Positions 1,316 to 63,127 of a stretch of DNA of 64,000 bases are shown in pieces (position 1 is the stretch's first letter; each line of letters starts with the position of its first letter). This stretch comes from Methanothrix sp. Its GTDB lineage: Archaea; Halobacteriota; Methanosarcinia; Methanotrichales; Methanotrichaceae. The notes under the pieces were generated by a model. That model did no database searches, was not told the DNA's origin, and saw only the letters and a program-made list of their open reading frames with translations. The translations under genes were made by a program, and so were the position numbers. Location: positions 1-64,000 of the forward strand of contig JARYLI010000006.1 in NCBI GenBank assembly GCA_029907715.1, in the 5' to 3' direction.

Positions 1316-2518
1316 TCAGAGCAGGCTTCTCCTGTCAGCCAGCCCCAGAATATTCAGCAGCCCCAGCAGGTTCTCTCTCGATATCGACCCGTCGGAGACC
1401 TTCTTCAGCACATCCTTCGCATTGAACGCCACGCCGAGTCCTGCGTTCTGTATCATCAGACAGTCGTTTGCCCCGTCTCCAACAGCAACTATGTTGTCCG
1501 GGCTGATGCCCTCCATCTCAGCGAGCCGCTTGACTATCTCTCCCTTCGCCTCTGCATCGATGATCTCGCCCTTGATCTCCCCTGTCAGACGGCCGTCCTG
1601 TATCTCGAGCTCATTGGCGAATGTGTAGTCGAAACCAAGCCGCTCCTTCAATACATCGGTGAAGTATGTAAATCCTCCACTTATGAGCGCTATCTTGTAG
1701 CCCATCTGCTTCAGGTGGTGTATGAGCTCCTCAGACCCCGGCGTCAGGGAGAGCTGATCCGCGATCTCCTTCAGCGCCGAGACAGGCATCCCCTTCAGAA
1801 GCCTCACGCGGCGTCTGAGCGACTCCTCAAAATCGATCTCGCCGTTCATAGCCCTGTCAGTTATCATCCTCACCTCATCATCGACGCCAGCGAAGCTTGC
1901 AAGCCTGTTTATTATCTCGAAGTCAACAATCGTCATATCCATGTCGAAGACGATCAGACGCTTCTCCTTCTGGGCCTTATCCAGCCTCTGGACCACAACA
2001 TCGAGACCCAACCGCTCACACTCTGATCTGATCCACCGCCTGCACTCATCAGGGTCTGCCTCCCCGAAGTCCATCACGAACTCTATCGATATCAGATCGC
2101 CGCGAGCGGTCACTGCAGCCCTCTCGATGTTTATGCCTCTGGTGGACGCGACAGATGCAACATCTCTTATTATGCCGACCCTGTCCCTTGCGAGGATCGT
2201 GACCACGTAGAGGTTCTTCCTGCTCCTTCTTATTCCACGGTATCTCTCCAGCGGCAGGAACATGCACTGCACTCCCAGGGAATCGGATCGCCTCTGCATC
2301 TCCATCTCAAGCTCTTTTGGGTTGATCGCGGCTCTGCTGAAATCCGCGACCACGGACATGACGAACAGCCCCTGGAGCACCCTCTGGTCCATATCCACTA
2401 TGTTCACATTCCGCTCTGCAGGGAGCTGGAGTATATCACGTATGAGGCCGGGCCGGTCCCTGCCCACGAAGGTTATCACCCACAGGTCTTTAAAATGATC
2501 TCCAGGATCGGCGTTCAT
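1316..2518 (-). CDS. serB: Phosphoserine phosphatase with two ACT domains
   Basis: Hydrolyses O-phosphoserine to serine, the last step of phosphorylated serine synthesis, in the cytoplasm. Residues about 12-95 and 103-180 are two ACT domains (GRDRPGLIRDI and ARDRVGIIRDV), probably binding an amino-acid effector. A HAD domain follows, with nucleophile motif DMDMT (D192, D194), an ISGGF motif II region and GDGANDCLMI as the last acidic motif. At 400 residues it is longer than single-domain SerB, in line with ACT-containing forms. I chose the ATG at 2518; an in-frame upstream start at 2548 adds ten unconserved residues. Confidence 0.92.
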   Translation of the reverse strand: MNADPGDHFKDLWVITFVGRDRPGLIRDILQLPAERNVNIVDMDQRVLQGLFVMSVVADFSRAAINPKELEMEMQRRSDSLGVQCMFLPLERYRGIRRSRKNLYVVTILARDRVGIIRDVASVASTRGINIERAAVTARGDLISIEFVMDFGEADPDECRRWIRSECERLGLDVVVQRLDKAQKEKRLIVFDMDMTIVDFEIINRLASFAGVDDEVRMITDRAMNGEIDFEESLRRRVRLLKGMPVSALKEIADQLSLTPGSEELIHHLKQMGYKIALISGGFTYFTDVLKERLGFDYTFANELEIQDGRLTGEIKGEIIDAEAKGEIVKRLAEMEGISPDNIVAVGDGANDCLMIQNAGLGVAFNAKDVLKKVSDGSISRENLLGLLNILGLADRRSLL

Positions 2519-2763
2519 AACCAATATGCCCCTCCATTCAGCTCGCACACAAACCCGCTCTGAGCCCGGGCTCTGCAGTGCAAATAGCGCATGCAGTTAG
2601 TGAAATGCTGCCTCCAGGTCATTGATATCATATTCATGCCCCCACGAGAGCGGGCTTTCAGAGGGCTTCTGCGAGTCTGGGATCTGATCTGACCTGTGTT
2701 TATAGTTGCGCAAAGAGGTCTGCTGACAGCTGGCATCAGGCGTGATGGATGCATTTCTAGTAT

Positions 2764-3579
2764 TTAGATTTGAAGATATCCGGCGTCTGGTCCATTAGGG
2801 GCGCATTGACCGCTGCATTCACTGACCGATCTATTCGCAGACGCTCTCCATAATGCCTCTCCCAGATCCCTGTACATCCTGGAGAGCGCATCTCCCGCTG
2901 TTATCGCCATTGCCCCGTGCTCGCCGGAGACTATCACAAGCACATCGCCTCTGTCAGGTATCATCGCGCAGATCCCCTTCTCCCTCCAGGGATGGAATCT
3001 CCGCTCGGCACCAGGGATGTCCCAGACAGCTGTATCTCGAGGACATACAGCCCTGATCGATACGCCACGATCCAGCATATTTCTTACGAATTCATTCACA
3101 TGCAGGAATATGTTGTACAGATCCCCCATGCTCTCGAGAAGAGAGGGGTTGATTATGAGAAGATCCCGCTCTGCTCTTGATAGCACCTCAATAACCTTCT
3201 CGTACACCCTGCCGGCTCCCTGATGCACCCAGATCCCTATCTCCTCCTCCCCGCGCCCGAAACTGTCGGAAGAGTACACCTCCTCCAGCGCGTGCAGCGC
3301 AGCCTCTGCATCGGTCATGAAGCTGCTCTTCAGCCGCTCGAGCGCTGCAGCGGGATCCGCAACCCTGTACCTCATGGGCTTAGACGGCTGGACCTCCACT
3401 ATGCCCCTCATCACAAGCCTTTTCAGAGCGCCATATACTGCAGGCCTAGGTATTCCGGAGATCTGATGGATCTCAGAGGCTATCCCTGCCTTGAGCCTGG
3501 TAAGTGCTGTGTAAACTCTGGCCTCATACTCTGTGAGCCCGAGGTCACGCAGAGCCTTGATCGCATTCTTCTCCGACAT
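2764..3579 (-). CDS. TrmB-family transcriptional regulator
   Basis: 271 residues. The first about 75 form a TrmB-type winged helix: an LGLTEYEARVYTAL helix, an IPRPAVYGALKRL recognition helix and a wing. The rest looks like the effector-binding half of this family. It is transcribed divergently from the tetraether synthase homologue with only 53 bases between the starts, so it may regulate that gene, itself, or both. CAGTATG occurs at both ends of that gap. TrmB proteins usually sense sugars; the ligand here is unknown. Confidence 0.8.
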   Translation of the reverse strand: MSEKNAIKALRDLGLTEYEARVYTALTRLKAGIASEIHQISGIPRPAVYGALKRLVMRGIVEVQPSKPMRYRVADPAAALERLKSSFMTDAEAALHALEEVYSSDSFGRGEEEIGIWVHQGAGRVYEKVIEVLSRAERDLLIINPSLLESMGDLYNIFLHVNEFVRNMLDRGVSIRAVCPRDTAVWDIPGAERRFHPWREKGICAMIPDRGDVLVIVSGEHGAMAITAGDALSRMYRDLGEALWRASANRSVSECSGQCAPNGPDAGYLQI

Positions 3580-6721: not shown

Positions 6722-7275
6722 GGTGAGGAAGATGCTCCATTCTGCATTACCCATGAATCTGCATGGTCATTCAGTCCAGCTTCGGCAATGGGCGCAGATC
6801 ACAGATAAGACCTTTATGAATTGGTTTCCGGTACAGCACCGCATGATTTCGGTTCTCCCGTAGTCTCGCTGGTTTGTCCCGTAGTTGGACGCTGTGTGGG
6901 CGTGATGGAATGTTAACGATTTTCATGCTCACACATTTTCTTTTCCCCTCCCCAACCCCCTCTCCTTGTGGTCTGTCACGCGAGCCGCGCCGTGCTGCGA
7001 AGCGAGCTCATTTCCACTACCAGGTGGACGAGCGATCGAAAGCATCTAGCGGCGCTGAAGAGCTCTTACATGCATACGAGTGATAGCCACCTGGCACAAA
7101 CCAGCATCGTGAGACGATAGTACTTTTCGACTTCGTCGAAACTCTTCGACGCAGTCGAAGGTAAGTCGAAACGAGCGCATAGCAGGATCGGGGTCTCTGC
7201 GAAAAAGTTGTCAGATGGATAAGAGCGATAGGTTGAATTTTCTGAGAGTTATAAATCAAAATCAATATACTTAAG
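6722..7275. other. Intergenic region with paired palindromes
   Basis: This 554-base gap contains no open frame with family features. It holds a pyrimidine-rich run near 6930-6970 and two 15-base palindromes of the form TTCGAC-N3-GTCGAA at 7126-7140 and 7145-7159, followed by a half-site AGTCGAA. Their role is unknown. Confidence 0.4.
7126..7159. repeat. Two adjacent TTCGAC-N3-GTCGAA palindromes
   Basis: Both 15-base units are exact dyads with different 3-base centres (TTC and GCA), four bases apart. They could be a double binding site or two small hairpins. They lie 117 bases downstream of the tRNA-Leu 3' end. Confidence 0.6.
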
Positions 7276-9600: not shown

Positions 9601-9685
9601 GATTGCAACCAGGCATAGACCCACCATCAGATGTGAGGTCCATGCAATAATTTTTCATTCACCTTTTTGTTTGGCCCAAGCAGTA

Positions 9686-9800
9686 TTTGCTCAATATAGT
9701 GAGCGTGCTTGAGTTACCGATCAAGTGAAGCTGTTATGGCAGAGTCGTTCATCCAGAGATCCGTCGAGATGGCAATTTAGCTCAACGTATTGAGCATGTT
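9686..9800. repeat. Dispersed intergenic repeat, copy 1
   Basis: A 115-base element starting TTTGCTCAATAT and ending GTATTGAGCATGTT, so the ends are inverted (TGCTCAATA/TATTGAGCA). An internal GAGCGTGCTTGAGTTAC block is followed by ATCAAGTGA and, later, GGCAATTT. Copies lie at 51921-52029 and 55934-56052, with a fragment at 13497-13550. This copy sits between convergent genes. Confidence 0.8.
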
Positions 9801-9852
9801 CCCCAAGCATCTGCTCAAGCATCTCTGCCCCGAGCAGTTTTGTTCAGCGCTG

Positions 9853-13496: not shown

Positions 13497-13550
13497 CATC
13501 ATCGGGCATAGTCGTTCATCCAGAGAATCTGCCAAGAGGGCAATTCACCT
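13497..13550. repeat. Dispersed intergenic repeat, fragment
   Basis: This segment matches the central and right-hand part of copy 55934-56052 (CGGCCATAGTCGTTTATCC, then CCGCCAAGAGGGCAATTTAC) with few differences. The left end and right inverted end are missing. It ends at the 3' end of the helicase gene. Confidence 0.7.
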
Positions 13551-15986
13551 CTCCCCATCCACCCCTTCAATCCCCCTCTTCGATCTGGCAGCTTCCTCTG
13601 CGATCTCCATCTTCCCCAGAACCCTGGAAATCGCCTCGATCGCCTCCAGGTATCTCACAATCTGGTCGAGGTAGTTGATCAGATCCCCCTCGTATCCGTA
13701 GATCCCGTAATCGTCGCTCAAGGCGTACAGAATCCCCTTCGGGTCCATCCCCTGTGATCTCATCTCCAGGATCCACGTCGAGACTGCCCGCTCCACGCAT
13801 CCGCAGTACGGCGCCTCCCTGCACGTGCATCTCATGAAATCTCTGGCGAAGCGCAGGCACTCCTCTTGGATCCTGCGATCGAGCTTTAGGAGATCTGGGC
13901 TAGAGATGAGATCGAAGAATGACCCCTGGAATACCCTCTGTGCCAGCGGCATTCTGATCTTGAATGATATCTGGTCTGCTGCCCTCAGGAACAGGGCATC
14001 GAACTGCTCGAGATCGACGGCGATCTCTATGGGGGATCTCCCTGCATTTATGCCTCTTATCACGAGATCCGCCTGCTCCGGGCTCAGGAAGTGCGCTGCC
14101 ACCACCCTGCCGAGCCTCGTGGGAGATATGCCTCTCACGAGACCCCTCTCGCGCAGGATATCCAAGGCTCTGTTCAGATCGTCCAGACCGATCGTGAGCC
14201 TGTGCAGCTCCCTCAGCTCCTCCATGGATCGGGCGACAGCTGTATTTGCGAGGACCTCCTCGAGCTGCTGCTGCTCCTCATAATGCGGTGAGACATCCTC
14301 AACAGAGCTGCTGAGAAGCCTCAGGGCGACCTCATCCTCGCTCTCCAAGCCGTTATAGCGCCTCCCGGGCTCTGCGAGTATGTACACAAGACCCCTGTCG
14401 TGGTACCCGGGCCTGCCTGCCCTTCCGAGCATCTGGTTGAACTCATGGACGGTGAGCCACTCGATCCCCATCGCAAGCGTCTCAAATATCACCTGCGATG
14501 CGGGGAAATCCACGCCCGCTGCAAGCGCGGATGTCGTGACGACCGCGTTGATCTTACCCTGAGCGAAGAGCTCCTCTATCCTCTTCCTCTCATGGTACTG
14601 GAGGCCTGCATGATACGCAGCCGCCCCCGGAATCGACTGTGCGAGGGAGAAGCACTTTTTCCTGGAGTTCGTGAATATTATCGTCTGTCCCTTGTATCCT
14701 GTTGAGGATCTGAGAGACGCCCCGGAGCCAACCAGTTTTCTTATCAGATGCAGCTTGTCCGCAGGTGATGTGAAGATAAGGTGTCTCTCAATGGGCACAG
14801 GTCTTATCTCATATTCGACCAGCTCCGCGTCGAGGCTCTTTGCGAGAGCTGCCGGATTTCCGACTGTCGCTGAGAGGTAGATGAACTGCGCTCCGGGAGC
14901 GACGAATCTCAGCCTCGCGATCATTCCTGCTAGCCGGTGGCCGCGCTCTGGATCCTCGAGCATGTGGACCTCATCAATGACCACTGTTCCGATCCTGCCA
15001 GGGCTCCTGCCGCTCCGGAGAACCTGGTCGATGCCCTCGTATGTTCCAACGATGATATCAGCTTCCAGGTCAGTCGGCAGGCTGAACGCCCTTCCAAGCC
15101 GCAGCCGGCTCACGCCCACCCTTATCGATGTCCTGAATCCCAGCTCGGAATAAGCGGAGAGCTGCTCGAACTTCTGGTTGGCCAGGGCGACGAGGGGGAC
15201 GAGAAAAAGAAGCTTGCCCCTCCCTTCGATCAGGTTCTTTATACCAGCGATCTCTCCGATCAGGCTCTTTCCGGTTGCTGTCGCCGATACGACAAGAAGG
15301 CTTTTTCCCTCGAGAAGCCCCTTCCTCACAGCCAATGCCTGCACCGGCAGGAGATTGCTGAGCCGCCTCTTCAGATAATCCCTCAGCTCTGTGGGGATCT
15401 GGATATCATCAATGCTCAGAGATGCGACCTCTTCAGAGGCTGGTATGACATCGAAACGGGTGAGATCCGGATCTATCCTCTGGAGGTTCAGGAGATCCAT
15501 GACCTCATCCAGATCGCGCCTCCTCGCAAGTATCCCCGCGAGGTGCCTTCTCCCGGCTCTTCCTATCCCTCTGAACTCGGCCTCCCTGTTTATCTCATCG
15601 ACCGCACATCTGTAGCATATTCTGGAGCCCCTGTAGCTCACAGAGCCCTCTCCGAGAAGCGTGACCCTTTTTCTTCCGAGACAGTGCTGGCATACAGATA
15701 CCCTGTGATGTTTCAGCTGGTATGCATTAAGCAGCTCGACAAATCTCTGCTCCAGAGCCTCTTCGCCCTTGGCCACAAAGATGCCTCTTGCCTTCCGGAG
15801 CAGCTTCACGGAATCGTCTGGGGGTAGATACCTCACGGTATCTTTCTTGACCAGAAACTTGTATGGTCTGGGTCCGTTCGGGGTATCCTTTATGCGAAGA
15901 TATCCCTCGAAGACCACCCTGTCATCCTTTATGGGCAGCAGAAGAATCCTGGATTTCTCGGCCTGCGCCAGAACGTTCAAGCTCAT
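13545..15986 (-). CDS. DEAD/DEAH-type helicase with N-terminal zinc domain (DUF5814-like)
   Basis: 813 residues. Residues about 100-135 contain CQHCLGRKR and ICYRC, a zinc ribbon. The superfamily 2 core follows: Walker A SATATGKS, DEVH box, YLSAT motif III, and QMLGRAGRPG motif VI, resembling Hel308/Ski2-like enzymes. The C-terminus has a second cysteine group (CTCREAPYCGC) and a helical tail. It is expected to unwind nucleic acid with ATP. Its start overlaps the stop of the upstream regulator by four bases. The zinc/helicase/cysteine arrangement is methanogen-type; the substrate is unknown. Confidence 0.82.
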   Translation of the reverse strand: MSLNVLAQAEKSRILLLPIKDDRVVFEGYLRIKDTPNGPRPYKFLVKKDTVRYLPPDDSVKLLRKARGIFVAKGEEALEQRFVELLNAYQLKHHRVSVCQHCLGRKRVTLLGEGSVSYRGSRICYRCAVDEINREAEFRGIGRAGRRHLAGILARRRDLDEVMDLLNLQRIDPDLTRFDVIPASEEVASLSIDDIQIPTELRDYLKRRLSNLLPVQALAVRKGLLEGKSLLVVSATATGKSLIGEIAGIKNLIEGRGKLLFLVPLVALANQKFEQLSAYSELGFRTSIRVGVSRLRLGRAFSLPTDLEADIIVGTYEGIDQVLRSGRSPGRIGTVVIDEVHMLEDPERGHRLAGMIARLRFVAPGAQFIYLSATVGNPAALAKSLDAELVEYEIRPVPIERHLIFTSPADKLHLIRKLVGSGASLRSSTGYKGQTIIFTNSRKKCFSLAQSIPGAAAYHAGLQYHERKRIEELFAQGKINAVVTTSALAAGVDFPASQVIFETLAMGIEWLTVHEFNQMLGRAGRPGYHDRGLVYILAEPGRRYNGLESEDEVALRLLSSSVEDVSPHYEEQQQLEEVLANTAVARSMEELRELHRLTIGLDDLNRALDILRERGLVRGISPTRLGRVVAAHFLSPEQADLVIRGINAGRSPIEIAVDLEQFDALFLRAADQISFKIRMPLAQRVFQGSFFDLISSPDLLKLDRRIQEECLRFARDFMRCTCREAPYCGCVERAVSTWILEMRSQGMDPKGILYALSDDYGIYGYEGDLINYLDQIVRYLEAIEAISRVLGKMEIAEEAARSKRGIEGVDGER

Positions 15987-31658: not shown

Positions 31659-32354
31659 GTGTCAGGACTGAAGATTATGGGTGTGCTGGCGCTCGCAGCG
31701 CTTCTTGCTGTGCCAGCGATGTCCATGCATGATGGCATGCGTGGCAGATTTTATGATCGAGGGTATGGCCCTGAGGTGGGGCCTGGCGGCGTCTGGCTCC
31801 TCATGGATGACCTCACGCAGGAGGATCTCGACAACATGACGCTTGCGGAGATCAGGGAGCTCAGGGAGACGAAGAGAGCCGAGCTGGAGAACATGACTTT
31901 GGCGGAGATCAGAGAGCTGAGGGAGAAGAAGATAGCGGAGATGAACAACACGACGCTCGCGGAGATGAGGGGAAAATACATGGAGTGCCCCTACTGGCCC
32001 ATGGGCGGAGCTCAGGGTCCGAGGGCCGGAGCGCCAGGTGCAGGCCGTGGCTGTGATGGACGCGGTCTCGGCATTGCTCCATTCGGAGGTCTATGGATGC
32101 TCATGGATGACCTCACGCAGGAGGATCTCGACAACATGACGCTTGCGGAGATCAGGGAGCTCAGGGAGAAGAAGAGAGCCGAGCTGGAGAACATGACTTT
32201 GACGGAGATCAGAGAGCTGAGGGAGAAGAAGATAGCGGAGATGAACAACACGACGCTCGCGGAGACGAGAGGAAAATACATGGAGTGTCCCTACTGGCCC
32301 ATGGGCGGAGCTCAGGGTCCCAGAGGTATGGGATACGGAAAGATGCAGAGATGA
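31659..32354 (+). CDS. Secreted repeat protein with N-glycosylation sequons
   Basis: 231 residues. The GTG start at 31659 has GAGGTGAT six bases upstream; an ATG at 31677 is also possible. After a signal peptide (MGVLALAALLAVPAMS) come two nearly identical blocks of 74 residues. Each contains DDLTQEDLDNMTLAEIRELRE, a second NMTL unit and an NNTTLAE unit, giving mini-repeats with N-x-T sequons and charged heptads. Each block ends with CPYWPMGGAQGP. The structure is probably a glycosylated surface coiled coil. The two blocks also match closely in DNA, so the duplication is recent. Confidence 0.7.
   Translation: MSGLKIMGVLALAALLAVPAMSMHDGMRGRFYDRGYGPEVGPGGVWLLMDDLTQEDLDNMTLAEIRELRETKRAELENMTLAEIRELREKKIAEMNNTTLAEMRGKYMECPYWPMGGAQGPRAGAPGAGRGCDGRGLGIAPFGGLWMLMDDLTQEDLDNMTLAEIRELREKKRAELENMTLTEIRELREKKIAEMNNTTLAETRGKYMECPYWPMGGAQGPRGMGYGKMQR
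31801..32322 (+). repeat. Intragenic duplication: two 222-base units, 300 bases apart
   Basis: Units 31801-32022 and 32101-32322 differ at only a few bases (for example ACG/AAG, GCG/ACG and GCCC/GTCC changes). The 78-base spacer between them is not repeated. Within each unit are nested mini-repeats of about 17-20 codons. Confidence 0.8.
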
Positions 32355-50170: not shown

Positions 50171-50994
50171 CCATCCTCCGTCACTCTGGCAGTCGCCCTT
50201 CTGTTCGCCCAGCACTGGAGGTTGACGGCCACAGGCAGTGATGCTGTGTGGCAGAACGCCCTCTCTATTTTCACGCCCAGAGCTGTGGTGTCACCTCCGA
50301 GCCCCATGGGGCCTATTCCGAGATTGTTGATCCTCCTGAGAAGCAGAAGCTCCTCCTCGCTCTCCCCTGGAACGCCCATGATCGCGCGCTTCGCGAGGGC
50401 TGCAGCCTGATCGAATGTCCCGCCAATCCCCACACCGACGAACACAGGCGGGCAGGCGTTCGACACACGCTCCGCGAGGTTCTCCAGGATGTAATCGAAC
50501 GGATCATCCGCTGGATTGAGCATCCCCAGGAAGCTCATGTTCTCAGATCCAGCTCCCTTTGGAAATGCGGTTATCCTGAGCGCATCTCCCGCAACCTGAT
50601 CCGCGATGAGGCAGGGCATGCCGGGTCCTGTGTTGTCCCCTGTGTTCGACCTGCTCAGCGGATCCACAACATTCGGTCTAAGCATGCCCTTTCCTGTCGC
50701 CATCCTCACTCCCTCCGCGATCGCCTCCCACAGATCGAATTCCAGGTGGAATCTCTCCCCGATCTCCACATGAAACACAGGAAGGCCCGTATCCTGGCAT
50801 ACCGGTCGTCCATCAGATTCTGCAATTCGTATGTTGTTCAGTATCGCCTCCAGATGGTACCTCGCTATCTCGTTTCTCTCCCTGCGAAGGGCGCTCTCTA
50901 TTGAGCGGACGACCCAGCCTGGCAGCGAGATCTGTGCTCTGCATAAGACCGCTTCAGTCGCCTCCACAACATCACGACGTCTCAACAACGCCAC
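50155..50994 (-). CDS. fumA: Fumarate hydratase class I, alpha (N-terminal) subunit
   Basis: 279 residues. The three cluster cysteines lie in PVCQDTGLPVF, VGVG-preceded NACPPVFVG, and a late ERAFCHTASLPVAVN, binding an oxygen-labile 4Fe-4S cluster. MGLGGDTTALGVKI is a substrate-region signature. It overlaps DUF166 by 23 bases upstream and fumB by 16 bases downstream. In methanogens the enzyme serves the incomplete citric acid pathway. Confidence 0.93.
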   Translation of the reverse strand: MALLRRRDVVEATEAVLCRAQISLPGWVVRSIESALRRERNEIARYHLEAILNNIRIAESDGRPVCQDTGLPVFHVEIGERFHLEFDLWEAIAEGVRMATGKGMLRPNVVDPLSRSNTGDNTGPGMPCLIADQVAGDALRITAFPKGAGSENMSFLGMLNPADDPFDYILENLAERVSNACPPVFVGVGIGGTFDQAAALAKRAIMGVPGESEEELLLLRRINNLGIGPMGLGGDTTALGVKIERAFCHTASLPVAVNLQCWANRRATARVTEDGWSIE

Positions 50995-51703
50995 CCCTTA
51001 TCCTGATCGGCCTCGACTGTTTTGGAAGATCGAGCTCTGATTGCAGGCCCAGAGCGCGCTCCATCGCATTCTTGTGCAGATCCCCTGATGTGTGAATACC
51101 TCCAGGCGTGCCGCGCACAGCCCTGCACGGATACTGCTGGCATGCTAGGCCTGCGAGAGATGGCGCCTCAGCGGTGCTCTTTCCGATGAGCTCGCTGGCG
51201 ACATGCCATGTGCTGCCGCATGGCGATCCTCGAACCACATCCACCCTGCTGATCCTGCCACTGTTCAGCTCGACCCTCAGCTCCGGTCTTCCCAGGCGCT
51301 CTGCGAACTCGTCGACAGCATCCACCCCGACCTTCTCAAGGGTGCAGCAGATCTCATCGACCTCTATGTAGATGTTATACCTCTCAGAGATGCTGCGCAG
51401 CTCCTCTATCGAGCCTGCCCTTCCGATGCCGCCGGGTATCAGAAGCGCCTTCACCCCGCGCTCCCCGGCCATTTTTGCTATTGCAGGCGTGAGATCCGGA
51501 TGCAGCGTGTACATGACAATCAGGTCCGCGCTGAAGACGTCCTCATTCAGGTCGATGCTCCTGAGAAACTCGTCCGGGTCCTCGATGAATCCGGGGAGCA
51601 GCTCCGGAACAGCCGCATGCACCACATCGAAGTCGGTATGCTTCATTATCGTATCTATGAGCCGCTCTCCGTACTTGCCTCTGGTGATCACTCCAACACG
51701 CAT
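50972..51703 (-). CDS. DUF166 family protein
   Basis: 243 residues. The start MRVGVITRGKYGERLIDTI is typical of DUF166. Later blocks are DLIVMYTLHPDLTPAIA, EVDEICCTLEKVG with two cysteines, SPCGSTWHVASELIG and CQQYPCRAVRGTPGG. Together the conserved cysteines look like a metal or iron-sulfur site. Its stop overlaps the fumA start, so it may act in fumarase maturation or be merely co-expressed. The ATG at 51703 is firm; the upstream frame extending to 51982 crosses an intergenic repeat. Confidence 0.82.
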   Translation of the reverse strand: MRVGVITRGKYGERLIDTIMKHTDFDVVHAAVPELLPGFIEDPDEFLRSIDLNEDVFSADLIVMYTLHPDLTPAIAKMAGERGVKALLIPGGIGRAGSIEELRSISERYNIYIEVDEICCTLEKVGVDAVDEFAERLGRPELRVELNSGRISRVDVVRGSPCGSTWHVASELIGKSTAEAPSLAGLACQQYPCRAVRGTPGGIHTSGDLHKNAMERALGLQSELDLPKQSRPIRIRGGVVETS

Positions 51704-51920
51704 GAACTGAGATTCATCACCGGTTATAAGAGATCTTCTGGACAGACCGGTGCGATCTGGATTGAAGCATCCCGTAATGCTCAGGGCGGTAAACCACAGC
51801 TGCTTGCGGCCTGGCGCAAGACCCCACACAGGCCATCTGCAGGAGTTCAACCGATGGGCGTTGCTCCGTGATGAAATTCTCCAAGACAGGGGGACCAGGC
51901 ATGTGGAGATCATCGATATC

Positions 51921-52029
51921 TGCTCAATATCGGGAGCGTACTTGATTTGCTGATCAAGTGAAACCGCTATGGCACAATCCATACAGAAATCTGCCAGGAG
52001 GGCAATTTACCTCAACGTATGAGCAAGTT
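51921..52029. repeat. Dispersed intergenic repeat, copy 2
   Basis: A 109-base copy starting TGCTCAATATCGGGAGC and ending CTCAACGTATGAGCAAGTT. It shares ATCAAGTGA, GGCA and GGGCAATTTACCTCAAC blocks with the copies at 9686-9800 and 55934-56052. It lies between two same-strand genes. Confidence 0.8.
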
Positions 52030-52042
52030 TTCATCGCACTGC

Positions 52043-55861: not shown

Positions 55862-55933
55862 ACAAGCCTCCTTTCTGGCTGAACCACGCTCAATATATTT
55901 ACGATTTTTGTGCCGTGCGCTCTCTGCGAGGTA

Positions 55934-56052
55934 TTTGCTCAATATCGTGAGCGTGCTTGAGTTACTGATCAAGTGAGGCCCTATCATCGGCCATAGTCGT
56001 TTATCCAGAAATCCGCCAAGAGGGCAATTTACCTCAACATATTGAGCATGTT
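55934..56052. repeat. Dispersed intergenic repeat, copy 3
   Basis: A 119-base copy starting TTTGCTCAATATCGTGAGC and ending ACATATTGAGCATGTT, with an internal CTTGA-N8-TCAAG dyad and CGGCCATAGTCG. It lies in the divergent gap between secF and the nitroreductase gene. It is the closest match to the fragment at 13497-13550. Confidence 0.82.
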
Positions 56053-56264
56053 CTCTGCGAGCCGCATGGAATTCGATGATCGAGGTCTCCAAAATCCGGA
56101 TCGCGGGCTCGAGCTGGGGCTTGAACTGCTGAACGGTGTTCCACCATCGGGACTCAGTGGCACAACACCAGCAGACCTCGAGCTGCGTGCTTTGGGTTCA
56201 GTGATCGGACAGACAGGGATATGAGAGGAGTAAATCTAAATTCATCGACTGTCAACATGGATTC

Positions 56265-62797: not shown

Positions 62798-63127
62798 GAA
62801 TTGCTCTCATCTTCTGATTCCTGTTCTGCTCATCCCATGCATCTTTGTCGCTCTTCCGCTTTGAACATGTGTCTGCTGAACGCCCTCATACGTTCGTCAG
62901 ATGGCTGAACCAGTGCTCCCGCGGAGCAAGTCCACATCCGAGAGCGTCTGGAGGCACGCACTTGATGTGTGGAAGGCACATAACAAGGGCCGCTCTTATC
63001 CATCTGATAACTTGCCCGAAGAGGCACCAGTCAAGCTATGCGCCAATGGCGAGCGAATGAGTGCATTCAGCAACCGGCCTGCATATCCTTCAAGTTGCTG
63101 AATACATAAGAGCAACAAGGGCTGCAT
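62798..63127. other. Intergenic region
   Basis: 330 bases. Open frames on both strands have no family features; nothing is recognised. Confidence 0.3.

Follow-up and report, generated by a model that had tools for sequence, protein, structure and literature searches.

The window, that is, the whole stretch of DNA analyzed (64,000 nucleotides, bases 1-64000 of contig C6 from a Methanothrix genome of 2.0 Mb in 55 contigs), carries a dispersed repeat of which an earlier note had reported three full copies and one fragment. A profile of the genome's own copies hit the window at exactly these four places, namely copy 1 at 9683-9801 (E 4.6e-39), copy 3 at 55931-56053 (E 1.3e-37), copy 2 at 51917-52029 (E 4.9e-28) and the fragment at 13502-13551 (E 4e-10), and independently found repeat families agree with them. 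The ends given in that note, the CTTGA/TCAAG dyad and the GGCAATTT block were all seen in the sequence. Its coordinates located the repeat but not its limits: the element begins 3 bases earlier and stops 1 base later, at target-site duplications, and the true ends, a few bases outside, read GTATTTGCTCAATA ... TATTGAGCATGTTC. The features are as follows.

9675-9682, no strand: left target-site duplication of copy 1, CCCAAGCA (flank comparison, sequence).
9683-9801, plus strand: MITE copy 1, 119 bp, in a convergent gene gap (profile/model match, duplications).
9683-9697, plus strand: left terminal inverted repeat of copy 1, GTATTTGCTCAATAT, the same end as in the autonomous IS66-family element L152.
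9788-9801, minus strand: right terminal inverted repeat of copy 1, TATTGAGCATGTTC, the same end as in the autonomous elements L151 and L157.
9802-9809, no strand: right target-site duplication of copy 1, CCCAAGCA (flank comparison, sequence).
13497-13552, plus strand: internal MITE fragment without ends, model positions 53-107 (profile/model match).
51910-51915 and 52031-52036: TCATCG, 6 bp, abutting both ends of copy 2, an eroded duplication.
51916-52030, plus strand: MITE copy 2, older, in the gap between a DUF166-family gene (5' end) and a radical SAM gene (3' end).
55923-55930, no strand: left target-site duplication of copy 3, TCTGCGAG (flank comparison, sequence).
55931-56053, plus strand: MITE copy 3, 123 bp, upstream of a SecD/SecF-family gene (profile match, duplications, empty sites).
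56054-56061, no strand: right target-site duplication of copy 3, TCTGCGAG (flank comparison, sequence).

The copies of this genome are 113-125 bp long and hold no gene or coding capacity. According to a rough ORF survey, the gaps that they occupy are tandem (24), convergent (10) or divergent (4), with two at contig edges and one copy apparently inside an ORF. This last case is copy 3, which falls in a TTG-extended frame; the SecD/SecF domain starts far downstream. The ORFs that overlap copies are spurious extensions and, once these are discounted, all copies are intergenic and none contains an ORF, as had been claimed. The MITE as source of the start codon of the ORF at 50972-51982 was also considered and rejected, because the start MRVGVITRGKYGERL sits just before the DUF166 domain, which begins at residue 98. 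It is improbable that some copies were co-opted by the host after insertion, as a transcription end, a promoter or a protein-binding site: their intergenic position, taken from the rough ORF survey, argues weakly for it, since copies that landed in genes would disappear in any case, while the copies have no common gene neighborhood and no orientation rule and their presence or absence varies between close relatives. Elsewhere in the window, positions 31785-32323 hold a direct repeat of 239 nt (95% identical, 300 nt spacing), probably in coding sequence.

Lining up 41 own copies with their flanks set the ends at GTATTTGCTCAATAT and TATTGAGCATGTTC. The terminal inverted repeats (GTATTTGCTCAATAT / GAACATGCTCAATA) retain their end-to-end pairs in 96% of cells. 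Target-site duplications, which the earlier note had proposed to look for, were found: perfect 8-bp duplications flank 16 of 37 copies and 22 of the 37 match at 7 or more of the 8 bases; shuffling the right flanks 2000 times gave a mean of 0.66 and at most 5.

Flank pairs were joined without the element and searched in relatives, and the results were aligned. The orthologous empty sites in the aligned relatives are precise or near-precise. At one locus (L024), G005 is empty, with a single GTCGAT target and 93% flank identity, and G002 is filled; a second locus (L017) is also empty in G005. The site of copy 3 is empty in G005 and in G003, and the joined-flank search found copy 3 in none of the five close relatives (G001 to G005). 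For copy 2, the flanks are present in G005 and the intervening DNA is too short for the element. The copy 1 locus shares 71% identity with G005, a divergence too great for precise comparison. G002 carries the element at the copy 1 site; within it sits an unrelated MITE of about 190 bp, whose insertion duplicated ATTTGCTC.

Other repeats were seen along the way. A second, unrelated MITE family has a 124-bp copy in the window at 62990-63113 (ends CGCTCTTAT...ATAAGAGC), with the 8-bp duplication AACAAGGG at 62982-62989 and 63114-63121, and a stretch related to this family lies at about 7175-7227; the MITE of about 190 bp in the copy 1 site of G002 belongs to it as well. A third repeat of about 90 bp, with roughly 40 matches in G002, lies in the left flank of L024.

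The full-length sequence-only model gave 74 matches in the 2.0 Mb of the genome, counting full copies, fragments and tandem units, which is far beyond chance; the coincidental similarity that the earlier note had allowed for is thus not borne out. BLAST with copy 1 gave at least 44 matches in the same genome (40 candidates were scored), and the 21-base right end gave 66, versus 0 for the same pattern read backwards as a control. Some of the aligned own copies are nearly identical to one another. Among the close relatives, the model matched 5 times in G001, 24 in G002, 0 in G003 and 13 each in G004 and G005; it matched 11 times in a genome of a different genus (G014) and not at all in G021 and G036. 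The repeat is therefore common to 5 of the 8 relatives searched, with 0 to 74 matches per genome, and the named records with the element's ends are mostly Methanothrix MAGs. One locus of the own genome (L035 1032-1408, contig C15 at about 34.7-35.1 kb) holds a tandem array of four 92-bp units that correspond to the MITE minus its left end, with 93% matches. The array is a minisatellite born from the MITE. A similar stretch lies at C15:33.5-33.7 kb.

The earlier note had offered a MITE or a structured RNA or binding element. Folded singly, copies are more stable than their shuffles (z -2.4 to -3.2). This foldback arises because the terminal inverted repeats pair, and inverted ends fold back in any MITE. 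In 54 copies from the own genome, several same-genus relatives and one genome of another genus, the named pairs were paired in 93.5% of cases both as observed and after shuffling, two-sided pair changes numbered 2 versus 1.9 in shuffles and the covariation score was 0.057 versus 0.056. The covariance analysis thus gave nothing above shuffles. RNAalifold on the aligned copies gave no consensus pair, and an Rfam search of the window returned two tRNAs only and no family matching the repeat. A structured RNA or regulatory element under selection, riboswitch-like or small-RNA, is highly improbable on this evidence. The folding of single copies, their intergenic position and interior blocks partly common to another genus would fit such an element, but the fold is that of any inverted ends, the insertion-site duplications and empty sites indicate mobility, and one close relative has zero copies. 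Of the two proposals, the MITE stands, backed by terminal inverted repeats, 8-bp duplications, empty sites and an autonomous element whose ends it shares, and the structured RNA is not supported.

The autonomous partners were reached through IS ends at contig breaks of G021, which led to a transposase C-terminus, then by peptide search to full elements. Three full-size elements of about 1.5 kb (L151, L152 and L157) were found in other Methanotrichaceae genomes. They carry the 14-base end motif of the MITE at both ends, with up to one mismatch, and each has a perfect 8-bp duplication: L152 (1528 bp) is bounded on both sides by GTATTTGCTCAATA, with the duplication GATAATTC, L151 (1532 bp) has the ends GAACATGCTCAATATCGTG/GAATATGCTCAATAT and the duplication GTCTTCTT, and L157 (1596 bp) is bounded on both sides by GAACATGCTCAATAAA, with the duplication GAAACGAT. 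The MITE and L152 share the left end GTATTTGCTCAATA, L151 goes on from its left end with GCTCAATATCGTG as the MITE does, and over 20 bases the MITE's right end is identical to the start-side end in G021, GAACATGCTCAATACGTTGA. No match between the interior of the MITE and those of the autonomous elements was visible beyond about 20 bp from each end.

L151 and L152 have a single open frame each, of 475-495 codons, that codes for the transposase. Both match the Pfam model DDE_Tnp_IS66 above its cut-off (1.7e-21 and 1.4e-21, respectively) and NCBIfam IS66 below that model's curated cut-off (5.9e-42 and 2e-43); the partner transposase scores 148.9 bits against a cut-off of 180, which suggests a divergent IS66 member. 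In L157, no ORF of 200 codons was present in the stretch read, and its frame is broken or short. The ends of the MITE and of the autonomous elements begin GTAT or GAAC, not GTAA, and ends beginning GTAA are typical of classical IS66. Elements of the IS66 family with a single transposase gene presumably correspond to the ISBst12-like subgroup.

The autonomous transposon with the same ends that the earlier note had suggested searching for thus exists in other Methanotrichaceae genomes and not in the own genome, where just an IS end remnant is left; a partner in the same genome is usual for a MITE, though not required. A search for PF03050 in the own genome and the five close relatives gave no match. 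The L152 transposase found one chance-level match in each of these six genomes, a 506-codon frame with a similar score in all of them. The own assembly, a MAG in 55 contigs, could hide a multi-copy IS; G002, a single contig of 1,879,471 bp in which an assembly gap is no possible reason, also lacks the transposase. With no such gene found in any of these six genomes, the family is a transposase orphan there: the mobilizing enzyme is missing where copies are most numerous, although some copies are nearly identical.

The IS end remnants of the own genome lie at C6 ~114.6 kb and C5 ~23.6 kb (L117 and L094), and their end resembles that of the G021 element. Next to the IS66-type end in L117, positions 1728-3021 (C6 ~113.2-114.5 kb) contain a broken IS256/Mutator-type transposase gene (PF00872, 2.2e-45), itself beside a fragment that is IS630-like by eye, a picture of nested IS remnants. 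An origin of the MITE from Mutator/IS256 was considered, as the pseudogene at C6 ~114 kb adjoins a matching end, and was rejected: in sequence, that end agrees with the IS66-type element of G021 instead, and IS256 thus looks like a nested insertion or an unrelated neighbor. An IS3-like C-terminus, recognized by eye beside the end in L094, was likewise taken as a nested remnant. Matches to the end pattern in Methanosarcina (L128-L132) have no adjoining transposase, lie near or inside genes and look like chance. On contig C4 (L092), two ends separated by 3 kb do not bound one large element, as ordinary genes lie between two MITEs.

The status of the repeat as a MITE is confirmed by its ends and duplications, by empty and filled orthologous sites, by its copy number, by autonomous elements with matching ends and by the absence of coding capacity. 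Its ends match those of the single-ORF IS66-family ISs of Methanotrichaceae, and it is very probably a non-autonomous element moved in trans by such a transposase, whose gene was since lost or was transient. We infer mobilization in trans by the partner transposase. An IS66-family transposase supplied in trans would bind the MITE ends, cut the element and join it into new sites, leaving 8-bp target duplications. Its gene would have been lost from the host lineage, or only passed through it, and orphan copies would be left behind.

The absence of copy 3 from all five relatives, together with the near-identical copies, suggests that the element kept moving after a resident transposase gene was gone, or moved without one. 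A different resident transposase recognizing the same ends might have moved the MITE in the host lineage. We consider such cross-mobilization unlikely: the near-identical copies and a copy 3 site that is empty in all five relatives would fit it, given that none of the six genomes showed an IS66 transposase, but the ends and 8-bp duplications fit IS66-family elements of the same archaeal family, and the IS end in the remnants L117 and L094 resembles the one of the G021 element. It is also rather doubtful, if a little less so, that the family still amplifies without an IS66 transposase, either because an unrelated resident enzyme took over the ends or because the transposase arrives transiently by transfer; if true, this would be a MITE family outliving its maker.

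The assignment to a non-autonomous IS66-type element explains the conspicuous intergenic repeats of Methanothrix and ties them to a named transposon family. The precise ends and insertion sites can be used for dating strain splits. With 74 matches versus none in a sister species, and no transposase gene, the family offers a test case for the spread and persistence of non-autonomous elements in archaea.

A search of open papers found none pairing Methanothrix with a MITE. Archaeal MITEs are listed in a 2024 review for Sulfolobus, Halobacterium, Haloquadratum, Desulfurococcus and "several other archaeal genomes", and Methanothrix is not named (PMC10969869). In a 2008 IS survey, Methanosaeta thermophila PT appears just for genes beside recently active ISs. 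Like other prokaryotic MITEs (PMC10969869), the repeat is short and geneless, has terminal inverted repeats, target-site duplications and many copies, and is presumed to be mobilized in trans by an autonomous element; it differs as a new sequence family. REP/BIME and other palindromic intergenic repeats are also short, intergenic and prone to foldback, whereas the Methanothrix repeat has defined ends, target duplications and an autonomous IS partner. With single-gene IS66 ISs, it shares 8-bp duplications and nearly the same inverted repeats as L151, L152 and L157; unlike them, it has no transposase and an interior unrelated past about 20 bp per end, and its GTAT/GAAC ends depart from the GTAA of classical IS66. 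It appears to be a new, IS66-type family of MITEs of an ordinary kind, in which nothing but the amplification as an orphan is mildly surprising.
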